From Mucilaginibacter ginsenosidivorans (lineage in GTDB: Bacteria; Bacteroidota; Bacteroidia; Sphingobacteriales; Sphingobacteriaceae), in assembly GCF_007971025.1 (NCBI RefSeq), contig NZ_CP042436.1, positions 4,898,001-4,962,000 of the forward strand: a stretch of 64,000 nucleotides of DNA, given 5' to 3'. Position 1 is the first letter of the stretch, and the number at the start of each line of letters is the position of its first letter. A model generated the notes under the pieces. That model made no database searches and was not told the origin of the DNA. It was given only the letters and a program-made list of their open reading frames with translations. This document shows positions 20,200-35,637 of the stretch, one piece after another. The position numbers were made by a program, and so were the translations under genes.

Positions 20200-21747
20200 T
20201 TATTTATCCCACCATACATGCGTGGTTAGCAGGTCGGGACCCTGCCGGGACACGGCTGCATTGTAATTTGCAGTGTTGATGGATGCCTCCGAAAGCGGGT
20301 ACATCATCCTGCGTGGTATGGTGCCGTTGGAGTTATTTCCCTGGTAGTTAACGGGCGTCAGAACAGGGTAACCGGTCCGGCGCCAGTTTGAGAACGACTC
20401 GTATTCGTCGTAGATCAGCGAGGCCCAAAATTGGGTATGTATCTGTTCCATTTGCTGATCGAATGTACCCGGCGCTAACGGGTGCGCTGCCAGGTAAGCA
20501 TCTATTTTTACTGCCGAAATAGCACCTGCACTGCCATAAAGCGCCCACTGGTGCATGGCCGCTGTTACACCGGCACTATAATATGTGGCGGCCGTGCCCT
20601 CGGTGGTCCAGCCCCTCAGCGTCGCTTCAGCAAGCAGCAGGTTGGTTTCCGCATTGGTTAGCACCATCAGGGGGGCGGTATATTGCAGTATGGTAGCAGG
20701 ATTAGGCTCGGAGTACGACTCGAAATTGACCGGCTGCGAAGTTAGCCCGTTGGGCATCCCTTTCTGGTTCGCCGCAGTAGTGTCGGGCACCGGGTTATTC
20801 GGGTCCTGGTAGTTCCATACAACCGCCAGCACACTCAAACGCGGATCGTTATTGTTTTTCAAGTAATTAATATAGGTATTGCTGTATTTATCGCCTTCTA
20901 TCAGGTTAAGGCCATAGGCTGTAGCCGAATAGTCGTTTCCGATCAATTCGACAGCGATGGGGTTGCGGTTGATATTGATAGAACCCGACTGATATTTCAT
21001 TACCGCAATGTCTGCATCGTTCAGTATCACACCGCCCGCTATCGCCTTCTGAACCCATTTTTGTGCGTTTGCCGGGTCCACTTTCGTCAGGCGCATGCCC
21101 AGGCGCAGCATCAGCGAATAGGCAAATTTTTTCCAGTTGCTGATATTCCCCCCGTATAGCAGGTCCGCCGTGCCGAAAGTAGCTTTACCGGCGTCGAAGG
21201 CCTGTGCAGCCGCATCCAGTTCGTTCAGCATGTCACTGTAAATATCCGACTGCGCATCATAAACCGGGAAAAACGTATTGTTAACGTACCCCTGCGCAGC
21301 CTGGGAGTAAGGCAGATCGCCGAACTGGTCGGTCATCCGGTGCATCACATAAACGCGCCATATCCGTGCCTCGGCTAATTTGTTTACATCTGCAGGGTCT
21401 GAACTTGCCCTGATCACATCGCTGATCTCGCTCACTGTGTTTTGATAGTAAACATTTAATGCTGCGCCGCCCTCGTTATTGGTAAGGTATTTATCGCCAA
21501 AACCCGATGCGAGTTTATAATTGGCAAAGTGCTGGATAAAGCCCGCCACGTTTGATATCTGCGAAGCATAATAATTTGCGTTAAAGGCGTCCAGTTCGGC
21601 CTTTGAGAACAGGTAAGGAACCGTAGGCGATGATATGGCGTTGGGGTCGGTATTGATAGCCACAAAATTCTTTTTGCATGCCGGCGTCATAATGGCAATT
21701 ATGGATACCAGGCATACGCCTAAATATATTTTTTTCATTTTCATCAT
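20200..21747 (-). CDS. SusD/RagB-like outer-membrane lipoprotein
   Basis: Surface nutrient-binding lid for the SusC receptor encoded 8 bp upstream. The 515 residues begin with a lipoprotein signal ending in MTPACKKNF, with the lipidated cysteine near residue 24. Typical features are the N-terminal NTDPNAISSPTVPYLFSKAELDA and the TPR-like helical body, for example MLNELDAAAQAFD, and the C-terminal YDEYESFSNWRRTGYPVL. These place it in the SusD-like subgroup found with STN-bearing SusC. The ligand cannot be read from sequence. Confidence 0.92.
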   Translation of the reverse strand: MMKMKKIYLGVCLVSIIAIMTPACKKNFVAINTDPNAISSPTVPYLFSKAELDAFNANYYASQISNVAGFIQHFANYKLASGFGDKYLTNNEGGAALNVYYQNTVSEISDVIRASSDPADVNKLAEARIWRVYVMHRMTDQFGDLPYSQAAQGYVNNTFFPVYDAQSDIYSDMLNELDAAAQAFDAGKATFGTADLLYGGNISNWKKFAYSLMLRLGMRLTKVDPANAQKWVQKAIAGGVILNDADIAVMKYQSGSININRNPIAVELIGNDYSATAYGLNLIEGDKYSNTYINYLKNNNDPRLSVLAVVWNYQDPNNPVPDTTAANQKGMPNGLTSQPVNFESYSEPNPATILQYTAPLMVLTNAETNLLLAEATLRGWTTEGTAATYYSAGVTAAMHQWALYGSAGAISAVKIDAYLAAHPLAPGTFDQQMEQIHTQFWASLIYDEYESFSNWRRTGYPVLTPVNYQGNNSNGTIPRRMMYPLSEASINTANYNAAVSRQGPDLLTTHVWWDK

Positions 21748-21755
21748 TCGAAAAA

Positions 21756-24700
21756 TTAGAATTTCACCATTAAGTTTAAACCGTAACTGCGGGTACGCGG
21801 AACGCCAAACATTTCCAAACCTTGCTCGTTACCCGCCGTAAAGGTTGATTCCGGGTCGATATTCGGCGCTTTTTTGTACAGGATCAACAAGTTTCGCGCA
21901 ACAAACGAAACGTTCAGCGACTGGATCTTTACCGATCCGATATGCTTTGCCGGAACGTTATAACCGAATATCACCTGCCTTAACTTGATGAAACTGCCGT
22001 CGTAAACAAAAAAGCTCGATATATTTTTGCGGTTATCATAAAAATTGGCAAGGTCGCTCACCGGAACGGTGTAGTTGAACGGCTGTCCGCCGTCGTCCAC
22101 ACCGCTGAGTGCCAACCCGCTCTCCCTGCCAGGCAGGGTACTCTTCAACAAACCGAAGCGGTCGCCGTAAAGGTTGGTACCCGAATATATTTTGTTGCCG
22201 TATTTCCCGTCTATCAAAAAGCTGAAATTAAACCTGTGATAGTTAAAGCTGTTGGTAATGCTCATTGCCGAAGGCGCTACGCCAGTGCCCAGGTCCACAG
22301 GGGCGCCCTGTTCCTCGTTGCCGTTTGCCGCATATACCGTGCGACCCTGCGCATCTTTTTTAAGTGCATAAGCCTGTAACTGTCCATAGGGCTTACCAAC
22401 TTCGGCGTAGATAGAAACATAACTATTGACCGCTGTACCCAGGAAGAAACTGTTCTGGCCGGCGGCCAGTTTCTCAACCGTGTTCTTGTTGTACGAGTAG
22501 GTGTAAGTTACATCCCAGGTAAAGTGGTCCGCCTTCACGGGCCTGCCCGTCAGCAACAGTTCAATACCCTTGTTGCTTATTTTACCTATGTTGAGGTATG
22601 CCGAACTAAACCCGGATAATGGGTCGACGTTAGCCGGAACGATGTCATTGATCGTTGTCCGGTTATACAGCGCGAGGTCCAGCCCCAAACGGTTCTTAAA
22701 GAATTTCAGCTCTGTGCCCACCTCGAAGGTTTGCGAGATATAAGGCTTTAACTTGCTGTTGGGCACAACCAGGTCGCCGTTTACGTCGCGGCTTATCTGC
22801 TGAAGCGGAATGGTGCTGCCCGCCAGCTGGCTGTAGGTGAGGTTAATACCATAAGGGTTCGGTGCGCCGCCGCCTACCTGGGCCCACGAGGCTCTTAATT
22901 TGGCATAGCTGATCCATTCGGGCAGCCTGGTGGCTTCTGAAAGGATGAAGCTTCCGCTCACCGACGGGTAAAAGATATGATCGTCCTCAATGCTCAGGGT
23001 CGAGAACCAATCATTTCTCCCGGTCACACTCAGGTAAGCGATACCCTTATAGTCAAAATCTGCGGATGCAAAAACCGAGTTGACCGCAGTTTTGGTGTAT
23101 TTGGGCAGGGTAACCACTGCGTTTACATTGGACAGGCTATAAAAGAAGGGAATATTAAAGTTACTTCCGTCAACCTCCACACCATCAAGTGTATGCTGCT
23201 GCTTGTTACCGCCTGCCAGCACATTCACATTAAAATCCTTAAGGAATTTAGTGTTATAGTTCAGTGTAAGTTCTGAGTTTATTTCAGAGGTGCTGTACTT
23301 CGTTACGTTCATTACCCCCTGCGGTGCATAAGCTGTACCGGTTGGCGTAATGCCTGTATAATCGTACGACAAATAATCGTCGCTCACACGGCCCTTGATA
23401 AATAAGTTGTCCAGCAAATTATATTTAACACTGGCGTAGCCGATAAAACGGTTCTTGGTGTCTTTTTCCTGGAACCGGTTAACAACAAAATAAGGGTTTG
23501 ATGCATAGCCCGAAACATTCCATAAGGTCTCATTGCCGTTGGCATCGTAGCCTGGCGCCAGGTTACGGATATCCACCGAATTGGCTATCATATAAGTACC
23601 CCAGTTGGGGTTGCCCAATGCATCGCCCAAACCGGGCCGGTTGATATTATTTTCAACATTGTACTGAGCTACGGCTTCAATGCTCAGGTTCTTGCCTAAT
23701 TTGGCGTTCACATTCAGGTTGGATATCTTCTTATCCAGCGAATTGTTCGGCACAATGCCTTTATTATTCAGATCGGAAACCGAGAACCTGAAATTGAGCG
23801 CCTCTGAACCACCCGTAAATGCAACTGTATTAGTAAAAGTTTTTCCGGTATTGTAAAAGTTTTTGATGTTGTTTTTCTGTGCAATGTAGGGTCTCGACAC
23901 GCCGTCGAATTGTATGACGCTTGAACCATCAAGTTTTGCGCCGAAGGATAAACGTCCGTATGAAATGGCGTCCTGCTGGTTGGTAACCACGGTACCGAAC
24001 TTCCCTTCGCCGTACTGATACTGCCAGTCGGGTATAACCAGCGGCGTTTCGGCTGCAAAAGTGGAGTTGTATTCAACCCCGACCCCTTTTTGGGCGGCCC
24101 CTTTTTTGGTAGTTATCAGGATGACACCGTTGGATGCGCGTGAACCATACAATGCGGATGCCGTGCCGCCCTTCAAAACACTGATAGACTCAATATCGTC
24201 CGGGTTGATACCGCTTATACCGTCGCCGTTATCCACGTTCAGGCTGGTTCCCGAGCCATTGGTTGTATTGGGCGTGGATGGTACATTATCGATAGGCATA
24301 CCATTAACTACGTACAACGGCTGGTTGTTACCCGCAATACTTCCGCTGCCCCGTATCACCACCCTGCTCGAACCACCCGGCCCGCTTGCAAGGCTTGATA
24401 CATTAACGCCGGCCACTTTACCTTCCAGCGCGTTGGCAACGTTTACCTCACGGGCCTGCACAAGATCCTCGCCCTTAACTTCGGTAACAGAAAAACCTAC
24501 GGCTTTTCTTTCCTTCCTGATACCAAGCGCTGTTACCACAACCTCGCTCAATGCGCTCGAGGCCGGTTTCAGCCTGATGATCAACAGCGAACTCAGGTTA
24601 GCCGCCGTTACCTCCTCCTTGTTGTACCCAATGTAGGCCACAACAACGGTAACCGGCTTGCCGTTATATTTATCGGGGATGTTTAATTCAAATTCTCCTG

Positions 24701-25268
24701 CATTATTTGTAGTGGTCCCAACGCCGGGGTCGTTTTTTAAGATCACCGACGCACCCGGAACAGGCTGCGAATTGTCATCGAAATAAACCTTGCCTTTCAG
24801 CACCCCCGCCGTATATTCTGCCCTGCTGTTCGGCGGACCAATGGCGTCGGACGATTTATTTTTGACGTCGCTTTTCTCAAAGATGATGATCTTTTTGTCA
24901 AACTGCTTGAAATCGAGATCAGTATTGTCGAGAATTAACTTCAAGGTTTTTTCGACGGTACGGGTTTCTTTTGGTATTGTGATGTTTTGATATAGAACAA
25001 TTTTTTCAGAAGGATAGGCCATCTGGAAACCTGAAAGTTTTTCAATTTTTTTGAGGGTTTTCTTCAGCGGTTCATTTTTCGCTTCTATCGTGATCGTTTC
25101 GTCCTTTATATTTTGCGAATTACCCGTCTTTGCCAGCAGCAGCTGGGCCGTAATCAGCATAATGGAACAACAGCAAACACTTAATCTCATGATAAACGGA
25201 AAACCAATATGTGTGCATAATTGAGCGGCACTAAACGGCCGCTTTGCAAAAGCAGTATTTTTTTGCAT
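21756..25268 (-). CDS. SusC/RagA TonB-dependent receptor with STN domain
   Basis: Outer-membrane importer of 1170 residues. In order: signal peptide (about 27-48), STN domain (about 55-125, DETITIEAKNEPLKKTLKKIEKLSGFQMAY), a carboxypeptidase-regulatory-like sandwich (about 150-235, LKGKVYFDDNSQPVPGASVILK), a TonB plug (about 240-390, with RESGSG-like RVVIRGSGSI and VVNGMPIDNVPS), and the barrel ending GLNLMVKF. The STN domain signals to the anti-sigma FecR protein, whose gene is 190 bp upstream on the same strand. TonB box DEVVVTA is replaced by SEVVVTA near residue 238. Substrate unknown. Confidence 0.94.
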   Translation of the reverse strand: MQKNTAFAKRPFSAAQLCTHIGFPFIMRLSVCCCSIMLITAQLLLAKTGNSQNIKDETITIEAKNEPLKKTLKKIEKLSGFQMAYPSEKIVLYQNITIPKETRTVEKTLKLILDNTDLDFKQFDKKIIIFEKSDVKNKSSDAIGPPNSRAEYTAGVLKGKVYFDDNSQPVPGASVILKNDPGVGTTTNNAGEFELNIPDKYNGKPVTVVVAYIGYNKEEVTAANLSSLLIIRLKPASSALSEVVVTALGIRKERKAVGFSVTEVKGEDLVQAREVNVANALEGKVAGVNVSSLASGPGGSSRVVIRGSGSIAGNNQPLYVVNGMPIDNVPSTPNTTNGSGTSLNVDNGDGISGINPDDIESISVLKGGTASALYGSRASNGVILITTKKGAAQKGVGVEYNSTFAAETPLVIPDWQYQYGEGKFGTVVTNQQDAISYGRLSFGAKLDGSSVIQFDGVSRPYIAQKNNIKNFYNTGKTFTNTVAFTGGSEALNFRFSVSDLNNKGIVPNNSLDKKISNLNVNAKLGKNLSIEAVAQYNVENNINRPGLGDALGNPNWGTYMIANSVDIRNLAPGYDANGNETLWNVSGYASNPYFVVNRFQEKDTKNRFIGYASVKYNLLDNLFIKGRVSDDYLSYDYTGITPTGTAYAPQGVMNVTKYSTSEINSELTLNYNTKFLKDFNVNVLAGGNKQQHTLDGVEVDGSNFNIPFFYSLSNVNAVVTLPKYTKTAVNSVFASADFDYKGIAYLSVTGRNDWFSTLSIEDDHIFYPSVSGSFILSEATRLPEWISYAKLRASWAQVGGGAPNPYGINLTYSQLAGSTIPLQQISRDVNGDLVVPNSKLKPYISQTFEVGTELKFFKNRLGLDLALYNRTTINDIVPANVDPLSGFSSAYLNIGKISNKGIELLLTGRPVKADHFTWDVTYTYSYNKNTVEKLAAGQNSFFLGTAVNSYVSIYAEVGKPYGQLQAYALKKDAQGRTVYAANGNEEQGAPVDLGTGVAPSAMSITNSFNYHRFNFSFLIDGKYGNKIYSGTNLYGDRFGLLKSTLPGRESGLALSGVDDGGQPFNYTVPVSDLANFYDNRKNISSFFVYDGSFIKLRQVIFGYNVPAKHIGSVKIQSLNVSFVARNLLILYKKAPNIDPESTFTAGNEQGLEMFGVPRTRSYGLNLMVKF

Positions 25269-25311
25269 TCTTTGTATAGTTTAAAAGTTTTCACCAAAAT
25301 TTTTCGACTTC

Positions 25312-25341
25312 AAACTCCCATTGCTTCCCGGCTGGGAGTTT
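25312..25341. repeat. Inverted repeat between fecR and susC
   Basis: AAACTCCCA (25312-25320) and TGGGAGTTT (25333-25341) form a perfect 9-bp stem with a 12-nt loop. The T run (GTTTTTTC) lies on the plus-strand side, which is opposite to the direction of the flanking genes. It lies in the untranslated leader of susC. Confidence 0.6.
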
Positions 25342-25458
25342 GTTTTTTCTGCGTGAACTCCCTGCTTCCCCAGAGAATCACTTGCTTTTTTTGCTAAGTT
25401 GTACCTGCTTTTCTTTTATTTATCCATACGCGTTGGTTTTTTTTTAACGGTGATCATT

Positions 25459-26442
25459 TTAATTACAGCCATTGCCATCAATGGTAATTTTTTGTGCATT
25501 TTCAAACTTATAGGTAGTGCCGCGGGCAGTACATAATATTTCGAGAATCTCTTTCAGGGTTTCTGTACCGGTAAATGATGCCGTGATAGGGCATTGTTCA
25601 AGCGCCGGGTTCTTAAATTCGATGGTTACCTGGTAGCGTTTACCTAGCAAAGTTGCAATTGATTTGAACGACTCGCCGTCGAACACCATATCGCTACCCG
25701 CCCACGTTAACGACTTCGATGCCTCAACTTTCGTTTTCTGAGCCACTGCGGTCCGGTTATCACAAACTACCTGTTCATTCGGCGTAAGTATTACCAATAT
25801 CTTATGGTCGTCTTCAACTTTTACCTTTCCCCTGGTAACAGTAACCACTACTTTCTTTTGTGAAGGATAGGCCGCAATGTCAAAGGCTGTACCTAAAACC
25901 GTGGTCTTTATAGTGCCTGTATGAATTACAAACGGCTTATTTTCGTCGTGATGAATATCGAAATACGCTTCGCCAATCAGCTCCACCTCGCGCTTGCTCC
26001 TATTGAAGGCCGCGGGATAGTGAAGTGTGCTGCCGTGCCGCAATACCACTTTACTTCCATCCGCAAGTGTAATAAACTGGTTTTCGTTTTTCTTTTCGGG
26101 TACCGCAACCGCTATCCGGTTTGGCGCCGGTTCTACCCTGTTGAATAAATAATATGCTCCGGCCAATAAACCGAACCCTACCAATACCGCAGCGACGCGG
26201 GTTATCCACCTAATGGGGTTGATGCGGCGAATACCGGCTTCCTTATCGATACGGCCCCTGAACCGCACGAACATATCTTTCGCCAATTCATCTTCACCTC
26301 CTGCCGAGCGGATAATATCTTCGAATGACCGGTCATTAACATCGAGTGATTGATACCAGGCGTTTAATTCGGCATCTTCATCAGGTGTGCATATCCCTTT
26401 ATAATAACGATCCAGTAAATAATTCAGTCGTTTGGTTTCCAT
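25459..26442 (-). CDS. FecR family anti-sigma factor
   Basis: Inner-membrane protein of 327 residues that transmits the state of the SusC receptor to the sigma factor. The cytoplasmic N-terminus (residues 1-75) has the family helix LLDRYYKGICTPDEDAELNAWYQS, a single transmembrane segment lies at about 78-100 (ITRVAAVLVGFGLLAGAYYLF), and the periplasmic FecR domain follows (TLADGSKVVLRHGSTLHYPAAF... EAYFDIHHDENKPFVIHT). The C-terminal domain (FDGESFKSIATLLGKRYQVTIEF) contacts STN. It is divergent from the sigma factor gene. The whole set is a trans-envelope regulator of SusC. Confidence 0.93.
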   Translation of the reverse strand: METKRLNYLLDRYYKGICTPDEDAELNAWYQSLDVNDRSFEDIIRSAGGEDELAKDMFVRFRGRIDKEAGIRRINPIRWITRVAAVLVGFGLLAGAYYLFNRVEPAPNRIAVAVPEKKNENQFITLADGSKVVLRHGSTLHYPAAFNRSKREVELIGEAYFDIHHDENKPFVIHTGTIKTTVLGTAFDIAAYPSQKKVVVTVTRGKVKVEDDHKILVILTPNEQVVCDNRTAVAQKTKVEASKSLTWAGSDMVFDGESFKSIATLLGKRYQVTIEFKNPALEQCPITASFTGTETLKEILEILCTARGTTYKFENAQKITIDGNGCN

Positions 26443-26699
26443 TGTAAGCGTTTACAAAATATAAAACACTTAACCCTGGCATCACCGTTACTTAACATCG
26501 GCTTTTTTTGAAATTTTCTTTTGAAGCTCCGCTCATTTTAAAAAAATAAGCAATTGTACTGCTACTTATTAAAAAAATTGCCTATAAAGCATCCAGACTC
26601 GGAATATTTTTATTAATATCGTTTTCGAAACTTTCCCGTGCATTCGAAAGTGTTTGAAAAGGAACTGTTTGCCCTTTTTAACTATTAATTTTAGCTGGT

Positions 26700-27290
26700 A
26701 TCAACCCTATTGATCAATATAGCGACGCTGAATTAATTGCGCTTTGGCAGCAAGGCACCGAATATGCATTTGAAATTTTATATAAAAGGCATGTTGTAAA
26801 ACTGCTGTCTGTTGCCTCAAAGAAAATTGACGACACTGAAACAGCGCAGGAATTTGTGCAGGATGTGTTTATTAGCCTGTTCGAGCGTCGAGATTCGTTC
26901 GACCCCAAAACTTCTTTACCGGCTTACTTATATGTGGCGCTAAAAAACCGCATTTTAAATCACTATCGTCACCAAAGCGTTCAAAAACGATATGAACAAT
27001 ACGTTGTGCTGCAACAGCCCGTCGTAACAGAAACCGCCATCTCGCAACTTCAGGGTAAAGAATTGGAAATGCAGATAAACGAAGAAATAAAAAAACTTCC
27101 GCTGCAATGCCGTACGGTATTTCTGCTGAGCCGCAGCGAGGGCCTGCCCCATAAAGAAATTGCCGCGCACCTTGATATTTCAGTGAATACCGTGGAGCAG
27201 CATATGCGTAAGGCATTACGGATATTAAGGACATCCATGGGTAATTACCTGCACCTTATAGCTCTCCTGTTCTATTTCTGGGATAAATAG
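26700..27290 (+). CDS. ECF sigma factor of the SusC-FecR set, non-canonical start
   Basis: Sigma-70 family ECF factor, about 197 residues. The frame carries both full domains: region 2 in YSDAELIALWQQGTEYAFEILYKRHV and ETAQEFVQDVFISLFERRDSF, region 4 in LPLQCRTVFLLSRSEGLPHKEIAAHLDISVNTVEQHMRKALR. The conserved N-terminus extends to about 26700, but the only ATG, GTG or TTG in frame is GTG 26856, in the middle of region 2. Upstream in frame are ATT 26688 and ATC 26700 after a TAA at 26679. I place the start at ATC 26700 (giving M/I-NPIDQYSDAEL), but ATT 26688 is equally possible. It would activate the divergent fecR-susC-susD side. Confidence 0.8.
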   Translation: MNPIDQYSDAELIALWQQGTEYAFEILYKRHVVKLLSVASKKIDDTETAQEFVQDVFISLFERRDSFDPKTSLPAYLYVALKNRILNHYRHQSVQKRYEQYVVLQQPVVTETAISQLQGKELEMQINEEIKKLPLQCRTVFLLSRSEGLPHKEIAAHLDISVNTVEQHMRKALRILRTSMGNYLHLIALLFYFWDK

Positions 27291-27332: not shown

Positions 27333-28421
27333 CTATACTTGTTCCTTAAGTGGTTTACGATGCCAGTAATTAGCCAGCAACGACCCTGTGATGTTCATAA
27401 GCGGGCCGAATACGGCAGGCGCCAGGCCCACTGTGGCAATTTTTCCCAATCCTTTTGCCAAGCCCGACGCAAGTCCGGCGTTTTGCATCCCTACTTCTAT
27501 AGCCATCGTACGGCAATCGCGTTCGGGCATTCTGAACAAGCGGCCGGCCCAGTAGCCCAGTGTATAACCCGACAAATTGTGGATCAGCATAAGCAGGATC
27601 AGCATAAAACCAATGTTCAATAAGCTGCTTCGACCGGCGGCTGTAATGATCACAATGATCAGCGCGATGCCGAACATGGATACCAGCGGCATTAATTTTT
27701 CCAGCCATAACGCCCGTTTTAGCAGATACTTATTAAAAAGGATGCCAGCGCCTATCGGTATGATGACGATTTTGACAATGTCCCACATCATGCTTAATAC
27801 ATCGATCTTGATAAATGCCCCGCCGAGAAGTTTCATTAGCAACGGGGTAAAAATTGGGGCCAGCATAGTAGAAACCGCTGTTATGGTAATGGATAAAGCC
27901 AGGTTTGCCTTAGCCAGGTACGACATGACATTGGAAGCCATACCGTTTGGCGAACAGCCCACCAGTATTATACCGGCCGCTATCTCGGGTGGAAAACCGC
28001 TTAATTTTGCCAGCGCAAAACCAAGCAGCGGCATAATAATAAAATGACTGCCAACACCTACAAACACTCCCCTTGGCATTTTAATTACGCCTGCAAAATC
28101 GCTCAGCCCCATGGAAGTTCCCATGCCGAACATAATAAGTTGTAAAAGCGGCGTAATAAGGCCCGAAAGCTTAAAGCCGTTTACAGTAATAAAATATTGC
28201 GGATAATATAAGGCAGTGGTTACAGCAGCAAAAATAACCACCGTATATGAAAAACCTTTTAACCGTTTGGACCCGCGAAAGGCGACGGATAACAGGACAA
28301 AAAAAGCGATGATAAAAGGCCCGGCGTGGGCAATTCCGTCCTGCCCGATGCGGATAGAGGCTACGAGCAGGCAAAGTATAGCTATACCGGCTATAACTTT
28401 ATAAATATCGGTATTTCTCAA
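27333..28421 (-). CDS. Bile acid:sodium symporter (BASS) family transporter
   Basis: Inner-membrane secondary carrier of 362 residues with about ten hydrophobic segments. The family pattern is seen in GLITPLLQLIMFGMGTSMGLSDF, in GCSPNGMASNVMSYLAKANLALSITITAVSTMLAPIFTPLLM (the crossing-helix motif CSPNGMASN), and in NAGLASGLA near the C-terminus. Characterised members carry bile acids, pantothenate precursors or pyruvate with sodium. It is the last gene of the eight-gene cluster (24 bp after the RraA-like gene), so it may take up the product of the pathway, for example a 2-keto acid. The substrate is an inference. Confidence 0.9.
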   Translation of the reverse strand: MRNTDIYKVIAGIAILCLLVASIRIGQDGIAHAGPFIIAFFVLLSVAFRGSKRLKGFSYTVVIFAAVTTALYYPQYFITVNGFKLSGLITPLLQLIMFGMGTSMGLSDFAGVIKMPRGVFVGVGSHFIIMPLLGFALAKLSGFPPEIAAGIILVGCSPNGMASNVMSYLAKANLALSITITAVSTMLAPIFTPLLMKLLGGAFIKIDVLSMMWDIVKIVIIPIGAGILFNKYLLKRALWLEKLMPLVSMFGIALIIVIITAAGRSSLLNIGFMLILLMLIHNLSGYTLGYWAGRLFRMPERDCRTMAIEVGMQNAGLASGLAKGLGKIATVGLAPAVFGPLMNITGSLLANYWHRKPLKEQV

Positions 28422-28445
28422 TGGCTTAAATTTAGGTTGATTTTA

Positions 28446-29378
28446 TTACCAGGTACGTTTTTCGGTAAAGGCATCTAATTGCGCCCTGGTTATTCTTGGT
28501 TCTTTAGGGTTTTCATCGAGCCATTTCATAAAGGCGTCCTTTAGCTGGCCGGTCCATTGGCTATCAATTTCACCGGGCGAGAACCTGCCCGATTTCAGCA
28601 TGGCATGACTAAAATCATCGCGTACAGCTATAAACTCTGCTGTGGCAATAACCTTTTCGGCCAGGTGGGCCGGAATAAAAAGCACGCCTTCCTTTTCCGA
28701 TATCACAAGGTCGCCGGGCAAAACAATAGCGTGGCCTATGCGTATAGGCGTATTAAGTCCCATCAAAACCATTCCTTCAAGGTAGGACGGGTCAAAATCG
28801 CGCACGAATGCGTTGAAACCCTTGATATCCTTTAAACCCGACAGGTCACGGGCCGAGCCGTCAAAAATAACCCCGTTACCCGATTTACTGAATATCGAAT
28901 TGCCCAGGTTATCGCCTATCAGCGTTCCGCCCCTTATCTTCCCAAAACCATCGGCCACATAAACGTCGCCCCTGGTCAAGACATCTATCGGCCACGAATT
29001 GGTGTTCCCTTTACGCCCCTGTTTTGCTCCTCTCTCTTTAATATTTTTTTCAATATCGGGCCTGCTCGGCATATACATCGCCGTAACCACCCGGCCAACC
29101 ACAGGTATGGTATCGTTAACCATCTTCCAGTCGCCTTCAAACTGGTTATTATAGCCCTCGTTCCGCAATACGGTCCATGCTTCTTCTATCCCTATCTTTT
29201 TTGCGCGTTCTATCAAAGCATCGGGGATCTTTGGCCTTCCATCAGGAAATCGTTCACCTTTCCATTCAGATGTATAAAAGATGAGCTCATCCCTCGAAAT
29301 GGTTTGCGCCCTGGCAGCCTGGCAGCAGCAAGCGCTGGTTAGTAACGATAACAATAAAATTTTGTAGTGTCTTCTCAT
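28446..29378 (-). CDS. Exported RraA-family aldolase
   Basis: A 310-residue protein of the RraA / 4-hydroxy-2-oxoacid aldolase family. The catalytic block is VIFDGSARDLSGLKDIKGF, with the conserved Arg and Asp of DG.xRD, and the C-terminal metal block GDLVISEKEGVLFIPAHLAEKVI is also present. A signal peptide (about residues 1-24, LLLSLLTSACCCQAARA/QTI) is unusual for this family and would export it. It is cotranscribed, 30 bp after the amidohydrolase gene. Related enzymes split 4-hydroxy-2-oxo acids into pyruvate plus an aldehyde. Whether the catalytic metal site is complete was not fully checked. Confidence 0.85.
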   Translation of the reverse strand: MRRHYKILLLSLLTSACCCQAARAQTISRDELIFYTSEWKGERFPDGRPKIPDALIERAKKIGIEEAWTVLRNEGYNNQFEGDWKMVNDTIPVVGRVVTAMYMPSRPDIEKNIKERGAKQGRKGNTNSWPIDVLTRGDVYVADGFGKIRGGTLIGDNLGNSIFSKSGNGVIFDGSARDLSGLKDIKGFNAFVRDFDPSYLEGMVLMGLNTPIRIGHAIVLPGDLVISEKEGVLFIPAHLAEKVIATAEFIAVRDDFSHAMLKSGRFSPGEIDSQWTGQLKDAFMKWLDENPKEPRITRAQLDAFTEKRTW

Positions 29379-29407
29379 GGTTTATAAAATGGTGCGATAT
29401 AGCTAAG

Positions 29408-30700
29408 TTAGTGTGTTTCTCCTTTTAAAGTTGCCTGCTTGCTCAAAGCAACCTTTTTAGAGGGATAAACCGGCGACGCGATACCGTTAAGGTCATATAA
29501 TATCTTTCCGGCCCTTACGGTAAGCTCGCATTCCAGCTTTTTACTGGCTTCTACTTTGTAACCTGTGTAATCAAAAAGGCCGAATTTACCTTCGCGAATG
29601 CTCAGCACGGCTATATCGGCATCGGCACCCACGGACAGGTTACCCAGTTCCTCATGTTTTATTTCTTTCGCGGGGTTTGATGTGCTGGCTTGTATCACAT
29701 CGTGCAGCGACATTCCCAGTTGCAAAAATTTGGTCATGCAGGTTAGCATATCCTTCATGGCATCATTCATGCTGCCAACGTGGATATCGGTGCTGATGGA
29801 GTTGGGGAAAAAGCCCTCTTTAGTTGCCGGCAATGCCTGCGAATACGCGAAACTGATGCCCCCGTAGCCGACGTCAAAAATGATCCCGCGCTTCCTGGCC
29901 TCATAAACAAAGGGCTTCACCTTGTTTGTTTGCAGGTCCACAATGTATTCCCTGCTGCCAAGCTGACCGAAACAGTGTGTAAAAATATCGCCGGGGCGCA
30001 GGTGTTTCATAAATAACTCTTCGATCGACAGCGGTGGGTTACTTCCACCAAAGTCGATCATCACTGGTATGCCGCCTGCAAGCGCGCCCGCTTCCACGGC
30101 ACGGTCGGTAGGTGCCCAATCGTGTCCTTCGTAATGAGCCAGCTTAATGCCTACAACAATATCCTTATATTTCCTTGCCATCAGCGCGGTCATTTTCGGA
30201 TCCATATCGTTCAGGTTCTGCTCGTATCCGCCGCGCATACCCTCGCCCACTATGTTCAAAAATGCCAGCACCCGGGTTTTAGAAACATCTATCGTTTGCG
30301 ATTTAAACGTTGGAAATGTTCGCCAGCCCGAACTGCCCGCATCTACAACCGTAGTAACGCCGTTCCTGAAAGTAAATCCATCAGGTGCTATCCCCAGGTT
30401 TCCGTCTTCGTACTGATGGTCGGGCTGTGTACCGTAAAAATCGTGCGTATGGATGTCTATCAATCCCGGGGTTACATACATCCCCTTTGCATCAACTACC
30501 TGCCCCCCCTGTTTGGGGTCGATGTTTTTTGCAACAAGCGCGATTTTGCCGCCATCTACCGCCACATCCATCACGGCGTCAATATCATTTTTGGGATCGA
30601 TGACATGGCCGCCTTTGATCACGATATCATAGGATTGCGCCATACCCGCCGGACCAAGGGCCAACAAAAGAGCCATTAACAGAAAAAAATTCTTCAGCAT
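29408..30700 (-). CDS. Exported amidohydrolase/deacetylase-family metallohydrolase
   Basis: A 430-residue dihydroorotase-like metal hydrolase of the EF_0837/AHA_3915 kind. A signal peptide covers residues 1-21 (LLMALLLALGPAGMA/QSY). The metal-binding start motif is PGLIDIHTHDFYG, then comes VTTVVDAGSSG, and later metal residues fall in KLAHYEGHDW and FTHCFGQ. The final sandwich domain has SVGADADIAVLSIREGKFG. Family relatives are predicted N-acyl amino-acid or amino-sugar deacylases and are usually paired with SelA-like PLP enzymes, as here (30 bp apart). Confidence 0.86.
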   Translation of the reverse strand: MLKNFFLLMALLLALGPAGMAQSYDIVIKGGHVIDPKNDIDAVMDVAVDGGKIALVAKNIDPKQGGQVVDAKGMYVTPGLIDIHTHDFYGTQPDHQYEDGNLGIAPDGFTFRNGVTTVVDAGSSGWRTFPTFKSQTIDVSKTRVLAFLNIVGEGMRGGYEQNLNDMDPKMTALMARKYKDIVVGIKLAHYEGHDWAPTDRAVEAGALAGGIPVMIDFGGSNPPLSIEELFMKHLRPGDIFTHCFGQLGSREYIVDLQTNKVKPFVYEARKRGIIFDVGYGGISFAYSQALPATKEGFFPNSISTDIHVGSMNDAMKDMLTCMTKFLQLGMSLHDVIQASTSNPAKEIKHEELGNLSVGADADIAVLSIREGKFGLFDYTGYKVEASKKLECELTVRAGKILYDLNGIASPVYPSKKVALSKQATLKGETH

Positions 30701-30730
30701 TTCAGGTCTATAATTAGTTTACGGCTTATC

Positions 30731-31945
30731 TCAGGTGGCCTGTTGCAATATCGATTTTACCCTGCCGGCCACAATATCCACCTGGTCGGGCCGCAAAAGC
30801 ACCACACCTACGAGTAAGTGATCTTTTCTGCCGCCGGCAACAATGCTTGGCGTGCCGCCTTTCAGGGCTTTCACTACGTCTTCGGGCTTTATTTTTATCT
30901 TCTCCGGGTCCCATGTCACCTTCAGGCTCGGAAATGCGTTAGCCGGCCCAGGATCAACCAACGTTTCGGTCTTAACGCTTTGTACCGTTTCGAGCTGCGA
31001 ACCTATATGTTTGGCACGTTGCAGCCAGTCTTCCCATTCTTTTTTATGGTCCCTCTCCAGGTAAGCTTTCAGGGCAGCGTACATGCCGAACATCTCCTCC
31101 TTATTTACTTTCATGGGCCTGCCGATAGGTGCTTCGTTAGGACTATGATTGGCGCGCGCGGCGGTTATCAGGTCCTTCCGTCCAAAAAGCAGGCCGGCGC
31201 TTTGCGGACCGCGTATCATTTTTCCGCCCGAAAAAGTAACCAGGTCAAAGCCTATCTTCTGATACTTGAACAAGTTTTCTACAGGTGGCACGTCCGCAGC
31301 GGCATCTAATAAGGTAGGGATATTATGCTTTTTGGCAACTGCCACAAAATCGGCGTGCTGGATACTGCTTTTTTCCGCTGCATTGAAAAATAATGCCATT
31401 ACCGTCCTGTCATTGATCGCCTTTTCCATTTCATCGGCACCTTCAACTTCAATAATTTTAGCGCCGGTTGTAGTGACTGCCTGGTCGAAAAGATAGCGGT
31501 GTGTTTTTTGCATGATAACCTCTGGCCTTGGGCCAGGCAAGTTTGGCAATAGTTTGATCTTTTCCGGGTCGGTCCCGGTTATAGCAGCCGCAGTACTTAA
31601 TAATATGGCGCAAGCCGCACCTGAAGTCACCATAGCAGCCTCTACATGAAGCATTTCGGCAATTTTAGCGCCTACTTTATCCTGCAATTCGTACATATTG
31701 GCAAAATCGTGCGAGGTTGAATTGATAGCCTCCAACACTTCTGGCAACATCAGCGAACCCGACAAAAACGTCATGGTTACCGATGCATTGATAACCGGCG
31801 TAACACCAAGCTCTTTAAACAGATCGCGTTCCGGCTTTACCGGTAACGCCGGCGCTTTTCCGCCAATCGACGCGGCAGCCTTGCCAACAATACCGCCTGT
31901 TAAGGGTAAAATGGTAAGGCCTTTTAATATATCTCTACGGTTCAT
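30731..31945 (-). CDS. Exported SelA-like PLP-dependent enzyme (DgaE type)
   Basis: A 404-residue fold-type I PLP enzyme related to selenocysteine synthase and to D-glucosaminate-6-phosphate ammonia-lyase. The PLP lysine is Lys242 in TFSGGKMIRGP, with the preceding aspartate in LLDAAADVPP. The N-terminus MNRRDILKGLTILPLTGG has a Tat-type motif (RR.ILK) and a hydrophobic stretch, then KAAASIGG. The start is ATG 31945: it gives the Tat motif, lies 12 bp after the RidA stop, and is better than ATG 31975, which overlaps RidA. Exported PLP enzymes are rare. Reaction inferred: loss of ammonia and water from a 2-amino-3-hydroxy acid. Confidence 0.82.
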   Translation of the reverse strand: MNRRDILKGLTILPLTGGIVGKAAASIGGKAPALPVKPERDLFKELGVTPVINASVTMTFLSGSLMLPEVLEAINSTSHDFANMYELQDKVGAKIAEMLHVEAAMVTSGAACAILLSTAAAITGTDPEKIKLLPNLPGPRPEVIMQKTHRYLFDQAVTTTGAKIIEVEGADEMEKAINDRTVMALFFNAAEKSSIQHADFVAVAKKHNIPTLLDAAADVPPVENLFKYQKIGFDLVTFSGGKMIRGPQSAGLLFGRKDLITAARANHSPNEAPIGRPMKVNKEEMFGMYAALKAYLERDHKKEWEDWLQRAKHIGSQLETVQSVKTETLVDPGPANAFPSLKVTWDPEKIKIKPEDVVKALKGGTPSIVAGGRKDHLLVGVVLLRPDQVDIVAGRVKSILQQAT

Positions 31946-31956
31946 TTTCGATAGTT

Positions 31957-32418
31957 TTAGATATAAGCTATGCAATCCATTTCCACCAGCGAGTTGCCAG
32001 GTACACCGCCCTTTGCTACGGCAACCGTAGTGCGCACCGGCGGATTGTTGCCGAAACGGCCCTTGTACACCTCGTTCATACCCTGGTAGTCGGCAATATC
32101 ATTCAGAAAAACAGAAACCTTCAGTACCTTCTCCATCGAAGAACCAGCCTTAATAAGCTCTTTCTCTAGTTCCTTCAATACAATTTCGGTATGCGCCTTA
32201 ATTTCAAACGGCTCCACATGCGCCCCTTTACCGGCAATAAAAACCATATTGCCCAGTTTGGTTGAACCCGAAAACAAGGGCACATCCTGTAACGTGGTTA
32301 CATTGTTGGCTACCTTTTCGTCCGCAGGTTTTGCAATGGCATCCCTGCTTATTCCGAATACGGACAGACCTACCACCGAGGCCAGCATTTTTTTCAAAAT
32401 AGATCTTCTTTGTTCCAT
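31957..32418 (-). CDS. Exported RidA-family enamine/imine deaminase
   Basis: A 153-residue RidA protein, 35 residues longer than usual because of an N-terminal Tat-type signal MEQRRSILKKMLASVVGLSVFG. The fold blocks are VPLFSGSTKLGNMVFIAGKG, EIVLKELEKELIKAGSSMEKVLKVSVFLNDIADYQGMNEVYKG, and the active site region NPPVRTTVAVAKGGVPGNSLVEMDCIAYI with the conserved Arg. RidA hydrolyses the 2-aminoacrylate-like enamine released by PLP lyases, which makes the neighbouring SelA-like gene (11 bp downstream) the obvious partner. Confidence 0.88.
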   Translation of the reverse strand: MEQRRSILKKMLASVVGLSVFGISRDAIAKPADEKVANNVTTLQDVPLFSGSTKLGNMVFIAGKGAHVEPFEIKAHTEIVLKELEKELIKAGSSMEKVLKVSVFLNDIADYQGMNEVYKGRFGNNPPVRTTVAVAKGGVPGNSLVEMDCIAYI

Positions 32419-32466
32419 GTTGTTTTAAGTTTTAGTGATCGTTTGTTTTTCTATGAGTAAAGCTAT

Positions 32467-32916
32467 TTATTTCGAACTGACGGGTAAATTCTTTGGATTT
32501 AAGGTAAGTATATATTTGACCATTTTATTGGCATCGGCCAACGCTATTGCAGGATGCGGCGCCATCGGGATCGGTCCCCAGACGCCGCTGCCGCCTTTGA
32601 TAACCTTTTGCGAAAGTTCGTCAACCGAGCTTTGATTTTGAGGATATTTTCCAGCAATGGCCGAATATGGCGGCCCCACCAGTTTGTCGTCTATCTTATG
32701 GCACGCCAGGCAGTCCGATTTGGATATCAGTGTTTTGCCCTCTTCAAGTTCGGGCGCAGCAGCAAAAGGCGGCGCAGGCGGGGGTACCACTTTGGCCACG
32801 GATGCAGGCGCTTTCCTTTTTACGGCGCCTTTTTTCTTTACCTGCGCTGGTGCATGCCAGGCAAAAACAATAAATACCATACTTATAATGCCTGTTATTG
32901 ATCTTTTAAACTTCAT
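32467..32916 (-). CDS. Periplasmic c-type cytochrome
   Basis: A monohaem cytochrome c of about 149 residues. The haem motif is C69-L-A-C72-H73 in SDCLACHKIDDKLVGPPYSAIAGKY. A possible Met ligand lies in GPIPMAPH. A signal peptide spans residues 1-24 (MKFKRSITGIISMVFIVFAWHAPA/QVK), followed by a Lys/Pro/Ala-rich linker. I use ATG 32916; ATG 32946 would overlap the preceding gene. Spacing of 2 bp after the SMP-30 gene and its role as an electron acceptor make it a likely partner of the dehydrogenase at 33844. Confidence 0.85.
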   Translation of the reverse strand: MKFKRSITGIISMVFIVFAWHAPAQVKKKGAVKRKAPASVAKVVPPPAPPFAAAPELEEGKTLISKSDCLACHKIDDKLVGPPYSAIAGKYPQNQSSVDELSQKVIKGGSGVWGPIPMAPHPAIALADANKMVKYILTLNPKNLPVSSK

Positions 32917-32918
32917 AG

Positions 32919-33851
32919 TTATTTCTGTTTTTGCGACATTTTCCATTCACGGCCCGGCTCATCTACCCTAAAGGTTTCCAGGTTGCCCTGGTCCTGCAAT
33001 GTGACATACATAGTTTTACCATCCGGTCCGCCGAAGGCAATATTGGTTGGCCGTTTGCCGATGAGGGCAATCTCACGGATAATTTTCCCATCGGGCGAAA
33101 TTTTGGCTATGGTCCCTTTGCCGAAACGTGCCTGGTAAATGTTACCCTTTACATCGCATCTTAATCCATCCATTCCAAAATCTGTAAATTCGGTTACAAG
33201 ATGTTTATTGCTTATTGTGCCTTTTGACGAAAGATCATAGGCCCATATCTTACGCTTTTCGTTTACATACAAGGTACGATTATCCGGACTCACATCTATA
33301 CCGTTAACGGTGGCCATACTATCCAAAAGTGTTATTTTTCCATCCGGGTCGATACGCCATATTTTACCTGTCCCTGCTTTCCAGTTCGGGTCGCTGGCAT
33401 ATATCCTGTCCTTATTATCAATAGCGATATCATTGGGCTGGCTCATTGTCACCTCATGGGCCAAAATGGTTTGTTGTTTGGTAGCCATGTTCACTTTAAT
33501 AATGTTATGCCCCGTATAATCCGCTATCAGCATATTCCCATGGCTATCAAACCTGGTCCCGTTACCGGTGCTGCCTTTGGGTAATTCGATAAAAACAGAA
33601 GCCGATCCGTCCGGCGTCATTTTGCCGATGGTCCCATCGTGACTGAAATTCACAGCGTAAATATTGCCATCTTTATCAACCGCCGGCCCTTCGACCCCTA
33701 TGGTAAAGCTATTAACAGGTGTAAATAAGACTGATTTAAAAAGCAACGCCGTATCCGCAGACTGGGCATTTGCGCTTACTGTAACTATTGTAAGCCATGC
33801 CAATACGAATAGCTGCTTAGTGAAAGCGGGGTTATGGACCTGTCTAATCAT
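32919..33851 (-). CDS. SMP-30/gluconolactonase-like protein, exported
   Basis: A 310-residue six-blade beta-propeller of the SMP-30/gluconolactonase/LRE family. A signal peptide ends at TVSANA/QSA (about residue 30). Family blocks are EGPAVDKDGNIYAVNFSHDGTIGKM, GNGTRFDSHGNMLIADYTGHNI, SQPNDIAIDNKDRIYASDP, NGIDVSPDNRTLYVNEKRKI and DGLRCDVKGNIYQARF. Residues of this kind bind calcium and open aldonolactones. The gene overlaps the preceding dehydrogenase gene by 8 bp, consistent with lactone hydrolysis directly after oxidation. Confidence 0.88.
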   Translation of the reverse strand: MIRQVHNPAFTKQLFVLAWLTIVTVSANAQSADTALLFKSVLFTPVNSFTIGVEGPAVDKDGNIYAVNFSHDGTIGKMTPDGSASVFIELPKGSTGNGTRFDSHGNMLIADYTGHNIIKVNMATKQQTILAHEVTMSQPNDIAIDNKDRIYASDPNWKAGTGKIWRIDPDGKITLLDSMATVNGIDVSPDNRTLYVNEKRKIWAYDLSSKGTISNKHLVTEFTDFGMDGLRCDVKGNIYQARFGKGTIAKISPDGKIIREIALIGKRPTNIAFGGPDGKTMYVTLQDQGNLETFRVDEPGREWKMSQKQK

Positions 33852-35637
33852 GAGTTTCTTTCGGTAATGTTTTTCTTACTGCGCCCACTTCTTCAGGCGT
33901 AACAATTTCAGGCAGGTTGTTAAAATTTGATTTTATATAAGTAAGCACCTCGGCTACCTGGGCGTCCGACAGGAAACTGCCGTGCCCCGGCATCACCTCG
34001 TTATAGGACAGCCCTTTCACCTTCACAGGACCTTTTAACCCGTTAAGGATCACTCTTATCAACCGGGGTGTGTTGTAATTCACCCACTCGGACTGCGCCA
34101 GCGGCGGGAACCTGTTTCCGTCGCCCTTCCCGTCTGCCTGGTGGCAGGCAATGCAATAAGTGCTGTACACCACCGATGTGGTGGCCATGCCTTTGAACAG
34201 GTTATCCTTTATTTCGTCGGGCGTTTTGATATTGGATGCCGTTTGCTTGCGCTTTTCCATAGCCGCCAGTTCGGGCGCCCCGAATTTCCTTTTGTCGCCT
34301 GTATACATGATCCGCCATATCCTGCCTCTTTCGGTATCGCTCACATACAAAGAGCCATCCGCGCCCTCAGCCAGCCCCATAGGACGATATACCGCATTAC
34401 TTACATTGACTATCGGGTCAACCCCCGCAAACCCATCAGCAAATACTTCCCAGGGTCCTGAAGGCTTGCCATCTTTAAATGGAACAAATGCAATAATGTA
34501 GCCAGCCTGCGGGTACGGAGCCCTGTCAGTCGAACCATGAAAGGCCACAAAAGCGCCGTTTTTGTAATGCGCGGGAAATTGCTTACCACGGTAAAATAGT
34601 AGGTCATTTGGTGCAAAATGCGCCGGGAAGCCAATAAGCGGCTGCGTTAATTTTGCGCCTTCGCCCTCCTTAACCTGGTCGCCGCCAAATTCAGGATTAA
34701 GCAGTTTCTTCCCTTTGATCTGGTCGTAATAATAGTAAGGCCAGCCACCGTCAAACCCTTTGGTTACCTTAAAAAATTCCTCTGCCGGTTGCATCGCACT
34801 TTCCCAGGGTGTATATATATCGGGCCAAAGCATACGAAAATCGTCGCGGCCATGTGCTACCGTATACAGCGATTTACTCTTTGGGTCCCAATCCAGTGCT
34901 ACTGTGCTTCGCAGCCCGGTAGCATATTTTACTCCATCAGCCTGATGTTGGCCGGTTTTATTGGCATCAAACATCCATATGCCGCCATGATCCTTTAACC
35001 AGGGATTACCTTTATTAGGCGATCCCGGCTCGCCAACCCCGGGCGATCCAGGCTGTCGGTTGTTTACCTGCCCCGCGTTCGAGCCGGCGCCCCAGCCAAC
35101 ATAAATGTGCCCTTTGTTGTCAAAGGCGATGGGTTTGGTCTGATGTTCATGATACGGCGGATTGTCTATAACAATCGTGTCTATTTTGCTGTCCGGAACC
35201 AGTTGTCCCTTTTTCAGTTTCATCCGGTAAACCATCAGTTCCGAACTGAAATACAAATAGCCATTATGTATCCGCATAGCCGTACCGTAAGTATGTCCGT
35301 CATATTTGCCAAAAGGAGTTATAATATCAGCCCTGCCGTCGCCATTAGTGTCTCTTAGGGCTATATTGCCATAGCCTCCGTTTAAATTGTGATTCCTGGC
35401 CTTTACATAAATATCACCGTTCTTATTAACAGCTATGTGCCTGGCCTGGCCCTTTAAGCTGTCAACGACAACCAGCGCCTGGAAACCATCCGGCAAATAA
35501 AGGCCGTCACTGTCGTTGTAAACAGGCAGTATCTTTAGCCGGGCGTTTTTCCACGAAAAGCCCATAAATGCAAGCAATGCGCCCGCGGCAATAAACTTCC
35601 ACAAATGTGAATGAAAATAACTTTTAGCCTCAGTCAT
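33844..35637 (-). CDS. Sorbosone/glucose dehydrogenase-like protein fused to cytochrome c
   Basis: First gene of the cluster, 597 residues. An N-terminal membrane anchor lies at about residues 12-28. Residues about 45-460 form a beta-propeller of the PQQ sugar dehydrogenase/L-sorbosone dehydrogenase kind (LPDGFQALVVVDSLKGQARHIAVNKNGDIYVKAR, GGIWMFDANKTGQ, VAHGRDDFRMLWPDIYT, PMGLAEGADGSLYVSDTERGRIWRI). Residues about 480-575 form a cytochrome c with C495-I-A-C498-H499 and a Met ligand in YNEVMPGHG. It would oxidise a sugar at C1 in the periplasm and pass electrons to the cluster cytochrome. PQQ dependence is an assumption. Confidence 0.87.
   Translation of the reverse strand: MTEAKSYFHSHLWKFIAAGALLAFMGFSWKNARLKILPVYNDSDGLYLPDGFQALVVVDSLKGQARHIAVNKNGDIYVKARNHNLNGGYGNIALRDTNGDGRADIITPFGKYDGHTYGTAMRIHNGYLYFSSELMVYRMKLKKGQLVPDSKIDTIVIDNPPYHEHQTKPIAFDNKGHIYVGWGAGSNAGQVNNRQPGSPGVGEPGSPNKGNPWLKDHGGIWMFDANKTGQHQADGVKYATGLRSTVALDWDPKSKSLYTVAHGRDDFRMLWPDIYTPWESAMQPAEEFFKVTKGFDGGWPYYYYDQIKGKKLLNPEFGGDQVKEGEGAKLTQPLIGFPAHFAPNDLLFYRGKQFPAHYKNGAFVAFHGSTDRAPYPQAGYIIAFVPFKDGKPSGPWEVFADGFAGVDPIVNVSNAVYRPMGLAEGADGSLYVSDTERGRIWRIMYTGDKRKFGAPELAAMEKRKQTASNIKTPDEIKDNLFKGMATTSVVYSTYCIACHQADGKGDGNRFPPLAQSEWVNYNTPRLIRVILNGLKGPVKVKGLSYNEVMPGHGSFLSDAQVAEVLTYIKSNFNNLPEIVTPEEVGAVRKTLPKETHD

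Follow-up and report, generated by a model that had tools for sequence, protein, structure and literature searches.

An exported variant of amino-sugar-acid catabolism in Bacteroidota? Comparative analysis of a conserved locus with a DgaE-like PLP enzyme and RidA in Mucilaginibacter ginsenosidivorans

A stretch of 64,000 nucleotides of the Mucilaginibacter ginsenosidivorans chromosome (contig NZ_CP042436.1, positions 4898001-4962000 of a single-contig genome of 5.35 Mb; hereafter the window, in whose numbering all positions are given) carries eight adjoining genes arranged around a pyridoxal 5'-phosphate (PLP) enzyme, a RidA protein and an amidohydrolase (AmdH). This gene set is a conserved module and more than a chance neighbourhood, its order being kept in other Bacteroidota and its co-occurrence being near perfect. 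From sequence comparison, the locus probably serves to break down a 2-amino sugar, or the corresponding aldonic acid, outside the cytoplasm. Gene content, gene order, co-occurrence, N-termini resembling twin-arginine translocation (Tat) or Sec signals, motifs and fold similarity were computed, and from these we infer every catalytic step, compartment and substrate described below.

In the proposed route, a SusC/SusD pair would bring the compound across the outer membrane, a sugar dehydrogenase with a cytochrome domain (GSDHcyt) would oxidise C1 and deliver the electrons to cytochromes, an SMP-30-type lactonase (SGL) would open the lactone and AmdH would deacylate the nitrogen. The DgaE-like PLP enzyme, exported by Tat, would then eliminate water from the free 2-amino-aldonate and, having no counterpart of the C3 proton donor of DgaE, would probably let go a reactive enamine or imine, which the co-exported RidA may hydrolyse to ammonia and a 2-keto-3-deoxy sugar acid. 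The acid would finally be split by RraA into pyruvate and an aldehyde, and/or the keto acid would be imported by the BASS-family carrier.

Related loci were gathered by a pattern scan of GTDB species genomes with the window PLP protein, which gave 65 loci with fetched stretches of about 1.06 Mb in total. All of them belong to Bacteroidota except that of Rhodohalobacter (L072), placed by NCBI in Balneolota, and the best matches of the window protein among named genomes were those of Mucilaginibacter. Families were assigned by Pfam and NCBIfam profile scans with curated cut-offs. A search for the same gene order in other genomes, put forward as a check in a preliminary description of the window, recovered all eight genes in order in 7 of the 65 loci (L022, L023, L024, L052, L058, L075 and L085) and a five-gene core of RidA, PLP enzyme, AmdH, RraA and BASS carrier, again in order, in 21. 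Within the same-strand runs around the PLP gene, where counts are lower bounds since many contigs are cut, AmdH and RidA were each found in at least 49 loci, RraA in at least 37, SusC in at least 30, BASS and GSDHcyt in at least 22 each and SGL in at least 14; anywhere in the fetched stretches, AmdH and RidA reached 53 each, RraA 39, BASS and GSDHcyt 26 each and SGL 18. A SusC-SusD pair stands directly before RidA in 19 of the loci.

Co-occurrence was assessed in 201 genomes of the window's family, its own genome included, with thresholds fixed before each search. The PLP enzyme was matched in 31 genomes and AmdH in exactly the same 31, while RidA was found in these and in one additional, 68%-complete genome and RraA in these and in seven more. 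The naive hypergeometric probability (p < 1e-29) shows only that the parts travel together, the genomes being related. In the phylum the PLP gene is patchy, since a phylum-wide sample held it in 7 of 296 genomes, the window's own counted.

Export was predicted with a rule-based script (not SignalP) that looks for a twin-arginine (RR) motif and applies a hydrophobic N-terminus criterion. The hydrophobic criterion is permissive, as 232 of 428 neighbouring open reading frames (ORFs) pass it, and the RR criterion, counted with a hydrophobicity floor, is stricter (20/428); because of this weakness of the former, the RR motif was relied on for RidA and the PLP enzyme. By the script it is present in all 51 RidA and in 82 of 85 PLP N-termini, against that background of 20 in 428. 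The hydrophobic criterion was passed by 55 of 62 AmdH, 39 of 40 RraA, 12 of 14 SGL and all seven cytochrome sequences, and by none of the sigma (0/20) or FecR (0/18) homologues. In the window, the N-termini of AmdH, RraA, SGL and the cytochrome resemble Sec signals and that of GSDHcyt forms a hydrophobic anchor; TatC is present in the genome. An extracytoplasmic location of the enzymes is predicted from these features, and the use of Tat by a cofactor-binding PLP enzyme is consistent with export in the folded state. Signals or membrane anchors had been described for the first seven gene products; the RR motifs of RidA and the PLP enzyme agree with this, whereas the Sec-like calls rest on the permissive criterion.

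The PLP enzyme, previously called SelA-like, does fall within the SelA/DgaE family, and its best NCBIfam match is the 'DgaE family' model TIGR01437, but it scores below the cut-offs of that model and of the DgaE equivalog NF047797 (156 against 600 bits). Structures were compared by Foldseek searches with predicted models (AlphaFold for GSDHcyt). The model of the PLP enzyme (predicted local distance difference test, pLDDT, 86) was matched best by Cap15 (8t7j; template-modelling score, TM(target), 0.88) and DgaE (7lc0; 0.85), with identities over aligned columns of 28% and 31%, respectively. SelA proper (L-seryl-tRNA selenium transferase) was rejected, its fold match being weaker than either (TM(target) 0.53-0.66).

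The active site was examined in an alignment of 102 sequences, namely the window protein and 101 others. The PLP-binding lysine (Lys213 in the chain numbering of DgaE used here, Lys-217 in PMC9529869) is kept in 102/102. The column of the DgaE carboxylate arginine, Arg226, holds Arg or Lys in 99 sequences (Arg 67, Lys 32; Arg in the window). At the columns of the DgaE proton donor His163 and its neighbour His162, a histidine at either is found in 1/102, and some histidine within loop 159-168 in 13/102, the window protein having none. At the phosphate-binding arginine columns 301, 332 and 346 of DgaE, Arg occurs in one sequence each, and the window has Ser, Gly and Asp in the MAFFT alignment, column 332 being alignment-dependent (Gly by MAFFT, Arg by phmmer pairwise). 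RidA exceeds the Pfam PF01042 cut-off and stays below that of TIGR00004 (65 against 106 bits), and its catalytic arginine, which we take to be of the Arg105 type, is kept in all 62 rows, the window and one reference included. Because His163 and the phosphate-binding arginines are missing, the comparison suggests a lyase that acts on an unphosphorylated substrate and releases an enamine, with an exported RidA as its partner. The H163A mutant of DgaE is fully active, with a transient 293-nm species and mixed C3 stereochemistry, and its authors propose enamine release (PMC9529869).

Since the proton donor is missing from an enzyme that lies next to a RidA predicted to leave by the same route, we propose, as our main mechanistic idea, that an enamine may be relayed from one protein to the other outside the inner membrane. 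We advance, tentatively, a wider idea: that a PLP-RidA lyase system was moved outside the inner membrane in Bacteroidota, gave up the proton donor by which DgaE achieves safe imine release, hands its enamine to a dedicated Tat-exported RidA, and was multiplied in some relatives as if it were a general strategy for amino-sugar acids. Two further arrangements of these proteins were seen. In L061 (10390-11964) and L062 (10344-13580), RR-motif proteins, of which the one scanned (L062, 10347-11951) belongs to the DUF362 family, lie beside a longer PLP paralogue of about 535 residues, which is accompanied by a separate RidA and AmdH encoded on the other strand. In L104, AmdH and the PLP gene are separated by a gene (12472-13020) for a second Rid-type protein of another kind (YjgF_endoribonc), whose N-terminus looks like a signal by eye.

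The model of GSDHcyt (pLDDT 79.5) was matched by 6jt5, 6i1q, 6i1t and 6h7t (TM(target) 0.70-0.73), thus resembling pyrroloquinoline quinone (PQQ)-dependent pyranose dehydrogenases of family AA12 and soluble glucose dehydrogenases. In four loci where GSDHcyt was undetected in the fetched stretch (L038, L048, L054 and L059), a PQQ-type dehydrogenase of another Pfam family is present, called by Pfam on L059 and by full-length BLAST matches of 60-77% identity on the others, and two of the four keep SGL. A 7-bladed lactonase occurs in three of the 65 loci, in L066 and L079 with no SGL detected and in L068 together with SGL. That different enzyme families appear to carry out one and the same step argues for sugar oxidation and lactone opening. 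The residues E, N, N and D that we presume to be the metal site of SGL are kept in 19/19 rows.

For RraA, the D-x20-R-D motif, which we take to mark the 4-hydroxy-4-methyl-2-oxoglutarate/4-carboxy-4-hydroxy-2-oxoadipate (HMG/CHA) aldolases of the family, is complete in the window; its first Asp is found in 33 of 42 rows and the RD pair in 41 of 42. A role in RNase E regulation was rejected on score (25 bits against 136) and on the signal peptide. The MR_MLE family of the enolase superfamily includes sugar-acid dehydratases, and in L042 and L084 (3700-8490) two RraA and two MR_MLE genes alternate ahead of RidA, PLP enzyme and AmdH; an RR motif was called by the script in two of the four MR_MLE proteins and recognised by eye in the remaining two. 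The genes look like exported sugar-acid dehydratase/aldolase pairs.

Further loci, 12 in number and separate from the 65, were picked by hand from a genus related to that of the window (g4). Four of them, from four genomes, hold the 2-keto-3-deoxygalactonate (KDGal) kinase DGOK and an Eda-type (2-keto-3-deoxy-6-phosphogluconate, KDPG) aldolase in a gene run with the PLP enzyme and AmdH. DGOK scores 201 and 196 bits in two (cut-off 25) and Eda 178 bits in one (cut-off 156), the rest being BLAST matches, and sulfatase, BNR or MR_MLE genes lie in between. The four probably represent one ancestral arrangement and are counted once; they name the expected product class, 2-keto-3-deoxy acids, directly. 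A single Eda-family gene exceeds the Pfam cut-off in the window genome, and the ORFs beside it look by eye like KdgK, UxaC and a carrier of the major facilitator superfamily (MFS), so imported 2-keto-3-deoxygluconate (KDG) could be used inside the cell.

AmdH had been described as an EF_0837-type amidohydrolase; it passes the NF006689 model, but not that of EF_0837 itself (TIGR03583, 230 against 432 bits). Its best matches among solved structures were 8je0, 2ogj and 2ics, and allantoinase and dihydroorotase were rejected on scores far below their cut-offs.

Genes that point directly to amino sugars are few near the PLP gene, namely GH20, 2-epimerase, NagB and NagX genes; GH20 stands near it in L048 and L109, and CBM9 is among the genes of the PLP clusters. 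In g4, hints come from two RR-motif proteins resembling N-acylglucosamine 2-epimerase, a NagB-like protein, NagX-like proteins and a sulfatase of SGSH type; those scored with NCBIfam all stayed under the curated cut-offs. The epimerase-like pair is a tandem (L103, 1903-4634; RR motifs by eye), with the NagB-like gene a few genes later. In L104 (15420-18761) and L105 (2615-5957) an M81/MlrC-type metallopeptidase and a gamma-glutamyltransferase lie beside exported PLP, AmdH and BASS genes, family scans having been made on L104. The genus also shows a large expansion of the predicted exported lyases, for example in G374, G402 and loci L100-L108: of its 14 PLP-positive genomes, 11 have at least nine PLP matches and 13 at least eight amidohydrolase matches. 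Two other genomes of the genus, G122 and G445, gave no PLP match.

A number of observations weigh against the proposed route. At the metal site of AmdH, which we take to be HxH, K, H, H, D, the beta-5 His is Asp in 88 and Glu in 4 of 92 aligned sequences, unlike 2ogj and 8je0, the other five positions being invariant; this replacement in 92/92 makes the reaction of the enzyme uncertain, and hence also the presence of an N-acyl group on the substrate. The first Asp of the RraA motif is missing in 9 of 42 rows, and periplasmic aldol cleavage may therefore not be general. Where SusCD precedes RidA (19 loci), GSDHcyt was undetected in 17 of the fetched stretches, so local oxidation is not universal, and nothing over the PqqE cut-off was found in the window genome, so a quinoprotein would need imported PQQ. 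DGOK and Eda were found in none of the 65 loci, only in the hand-picked ones of one genus, and GH20 in one of the 65 (BLAST with two GH20 queries), about the chance expectation from 6 per 5.35 Mb over 1.06 Mb. Identities of 31% and 28% to DgaE and Cap15 mean that the reaction is not transferable by similarity, which leaves lyase and oxygenase undecidable in that way. Finally, DgaE H163A is active in vitro with no RidA added (PMC9529869), and loss of the His alone is therefore no proof of a need for RidA.

The alternatives were weighed against the same evidence. The PLP enzyme could be an O2-dependent oxidase or oxygenase like Cap15, or like periplasmic PvdN, acting in the periplasm on a substrate that resembles an amino acid, by oxidative deamination or decarboxylation, while RidA clears the imine. 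Cap15 fits the PLP model as well as DgaE does and is the top Foldseek match, and a missing proton donor is one way in which PLP enzymes turn to O2 chemistry (PMC11794154). The cluster genes for RraA, MR_MLE, DGOK and Eda speak instead for 2-keto-3-deoxy acids, slightly more of the 65 family-conserved columns are common to DgaE alone than to Cap15 alone (10 against 6), and TIGR01437 remains the best, if sub-threshold, family match; such an oxidase is quite improbable in our judgement, and gene context favours a lyase. A pathway of the same shape and likewise exported might instead serve a beta-hydroxy amino acid that is not a sugar derivative, such as a D-amino acid released from peptides or an N-acylated hydroxy-amino acid. 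This would accord with the deamination of D-Ser and D-Thr by OngC (PMC9537276), with an AmdH that is no known sugar deacetylase and with the metallopeptidase and gamma-glutamyltransferase of L104, but the pyranose-dehydrogenase-like, lactonase, CBM9, sugar-acid-dehydratase-like, DGOK and N-acylglucosamine 2-epimerase-like genes of the clusters speak for sugars, and we regard it as unlikely.

More credible, though still short of probable, is a hybrid that departs from the preferred route at the end only: oxidation, deacylation and deamination would be exported, BASS would import the whole 2-keto-3-deoxy acid for cytoplasmic KdgK and Eda, and RraA would have another role. The g4 kinase and aldolase, the surroundings of Eda in the window genome and the RraA sequences that have lost the Asp favour it, whereas the occurrence of RraA in each of the 31 genomes with a PLP match, its intact motif in the window and the absence of any DGOK match in the window genome count against it. 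With regard to the preferred extracytoplasmic route, the preliminary description had read the eight genes as a periplasmic oxidative pathway for an N-acyl amino sugar. An exported, sugar-acid-type route to a 2-keto-3-deoxy acid, centred on a PLP ammonia-lyase and RidA, is supported by comparative evidence (the alternative dehydrogenase in four loci, the alternative lactonase in two, MR_MLE in 2/65, DGOK with Eda in g4, and co-occurrence). The earlier outline is thus correct in its general shape, but an N-acyl glucosamine derivative is no more than a candidate substrate, the deacylation is in doubt, and the RraA cleavage that it included is putative, with the full motif kept in the window and lost in part of the rows.

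Among the closest known systems is the D-glucosaminate pathway of Salmonella, DgaABCDEF, which shares with the locus a fold-type-I SelA-like PLP enzyme with its PLP-lysine and carboxylate arginine position, and a 2-keto-3-deoxy acid followed by an aldolase. DgaE acts on a 6-phosphate after uptake by the phosphotransferase system (PTS) (PMC9529869), whereas the PLP enzyme of the locus has a predicted Tat signal, no phosphate arginine cluster and no His162/163; the locus also has RidA and an amidohydrolase in addition, and an aldolase of a different family. Such cytoplasmic DgaE-type routes had been recognised earlier, but the cytoplasmic ong pathway for N-acetylglucosaminate in Pseudoalteromonas, which follows the same logic, had been overlooked. 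It too has a deacetylase, a PLP deaminase leading to KDG, TonB-dependent uptake and a dedicated RidA, OngD, which is essential and whose role is unexplained (PMC9537276). It differs in that OngB is D-aminoacylase-like and OngC of fold type III, both predicted cytoplasmic, that the substrate is oxidised by a lytic polysaccharide monooxygenase (LPMO) and that KdgK follows (PMC9537276). PpOngB chains and the window amidohydrolase match at 23 bits only, and the window PLP enzyme has the SelA/DgaE-type fold, not that of OngC. Cap15, the nearest fold to the window PLP enzyme, is itself an O2-dependent monooxygenase-decarboxylase of capuramycin biosynthesis, and the AA12 pyranose dehydrogenases share with GSDHcyt a beta-propeller at about 19% identity, a likeness by fold only. 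The RutC-family protein found in chitin clusters of Natrarchaeobius presumably belongs to the RidA superfamily. Those clusters also resemble the locus in a DgaE homologue, a glucose dehydrogenase and a galactonate dehydratase; they are archaeal, and the pathway proposed from them has a phosphorylated intermediate and regards RutC as a repressor (PMC12343721).

The features of the locus are collected in Table 1. The eight genes, their coordinates, minus strand and order, as first described, were all borne out by the ORF list and the Pfam/NCBIfam assignments, and the spacing given then, from an 8-bp overlap to 48 bp, is matched by gaps in transcription order of -8, 2, 48, 11, 30, 29 and 24 bp with later starts for the cytochrome and PLP genes. 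The second ATG of the cytochrome c gene gives the 2-bp gap, and the start of the PLP gene is most likely the ATG at 31945 and not the TTG of the ORF caller. Left out of that description were the adjoining sigma, FecR, SusC and SusD genes immediately downstream, with sigma on the opposite strand. The locus probably includes these genes (20200-27290), SusC and SusD being counted in it because they are about 50% identical to the pair directly upstream of RidA in related loci. The window sigma factor is 74% identical over 141 residues to that of L024, which likewise lies opposite its FecR gene; L027-L030 are among the loci with sigma and FecR in one direction.

Table 1 Genes of the locus, in window coordinates, with the evidence for each assignment
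Gene product	Position	Strand	Evidence
GSDHcyt, membrane-anchored beta-propeller sugar dehydrogenase with C-terminal cytochrome c	33844..35637	-	Pfam GSDH 29.5 bits, Cytochrom_C
SGL, SMP-30/gluconolactonase-type lactonase, predicted exported	32919..33851	-	PF08450 146 bits (cut-off 26)
Cytochrome c, predicted exported	32467..32916	-	PF00034
RidA, predicted Tat-exported	31957..32418	-	PF01042 69.9 bits; RR motif
DgaE-like fold-type-I PLP enzyme, predicted Tat-exported amino-aldonate ammonia-lyase	30731..31945	-	TIGR01437 197 bits (cut-off 385), Foldseek, active-site comparison
AmdH, NF006689-type amidohydrolase, predicted exported deacylase	29408..30700	-	NF006689 450 bits (cut-off 371)
RraA-like aldolase, predicted exported	28446..29378	-	PF03737 53 bits; complete D-x20-R-D motif
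BASS-family inner-membrane carrier, predicted keto-acid importer	27333..28421	-	PF01758 138 bits; PanS model 241 bits, below cut-off 400
Extracytoplasmic function (ECF) sigma factor	26712..27290	+	Sigma70_r2/r4_2
FecR anti-sigma factor	25459..26442	-	PF04773, PF16344
SusC-type TonB-dependent transporter	21756..25268	-	46-52% identity to SusC directly upstream of SusD-RidA-PLP elsewhere (best 22 matches)
SusD-like lipoprotein	20200..21747	-	PF12771 294 bits; 46-50% identity to SusD directly upstream of RidA (best 22 matches)

Overall, the locus is real and conserved, and its reading as an exported variant of known cytoplasmic pathways is partly supported. What would be new is the predicted export of the whole set, a DgaE-like enzyme with no proton donor and an exported RidA, and no description of an exported amino-sugar-acid pathway of this kind turned up in the lists returned by searches of the open-licence part of PubMed Central. 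If the proposal is true, amino-sugar-acid catabolism, so far described only inside cells, would also proceed outside the cytoplasm with a RidA of its own, enamine stress would have to be handled there, and the PLP enzyme would be a natural counterpart to the H163A mutant of DgaE. It would also suggest a role for OngD, the essential RidA of oxidative chitin catabolism, and provide a function for genes that recur together in soil and marine Bacteroidota.

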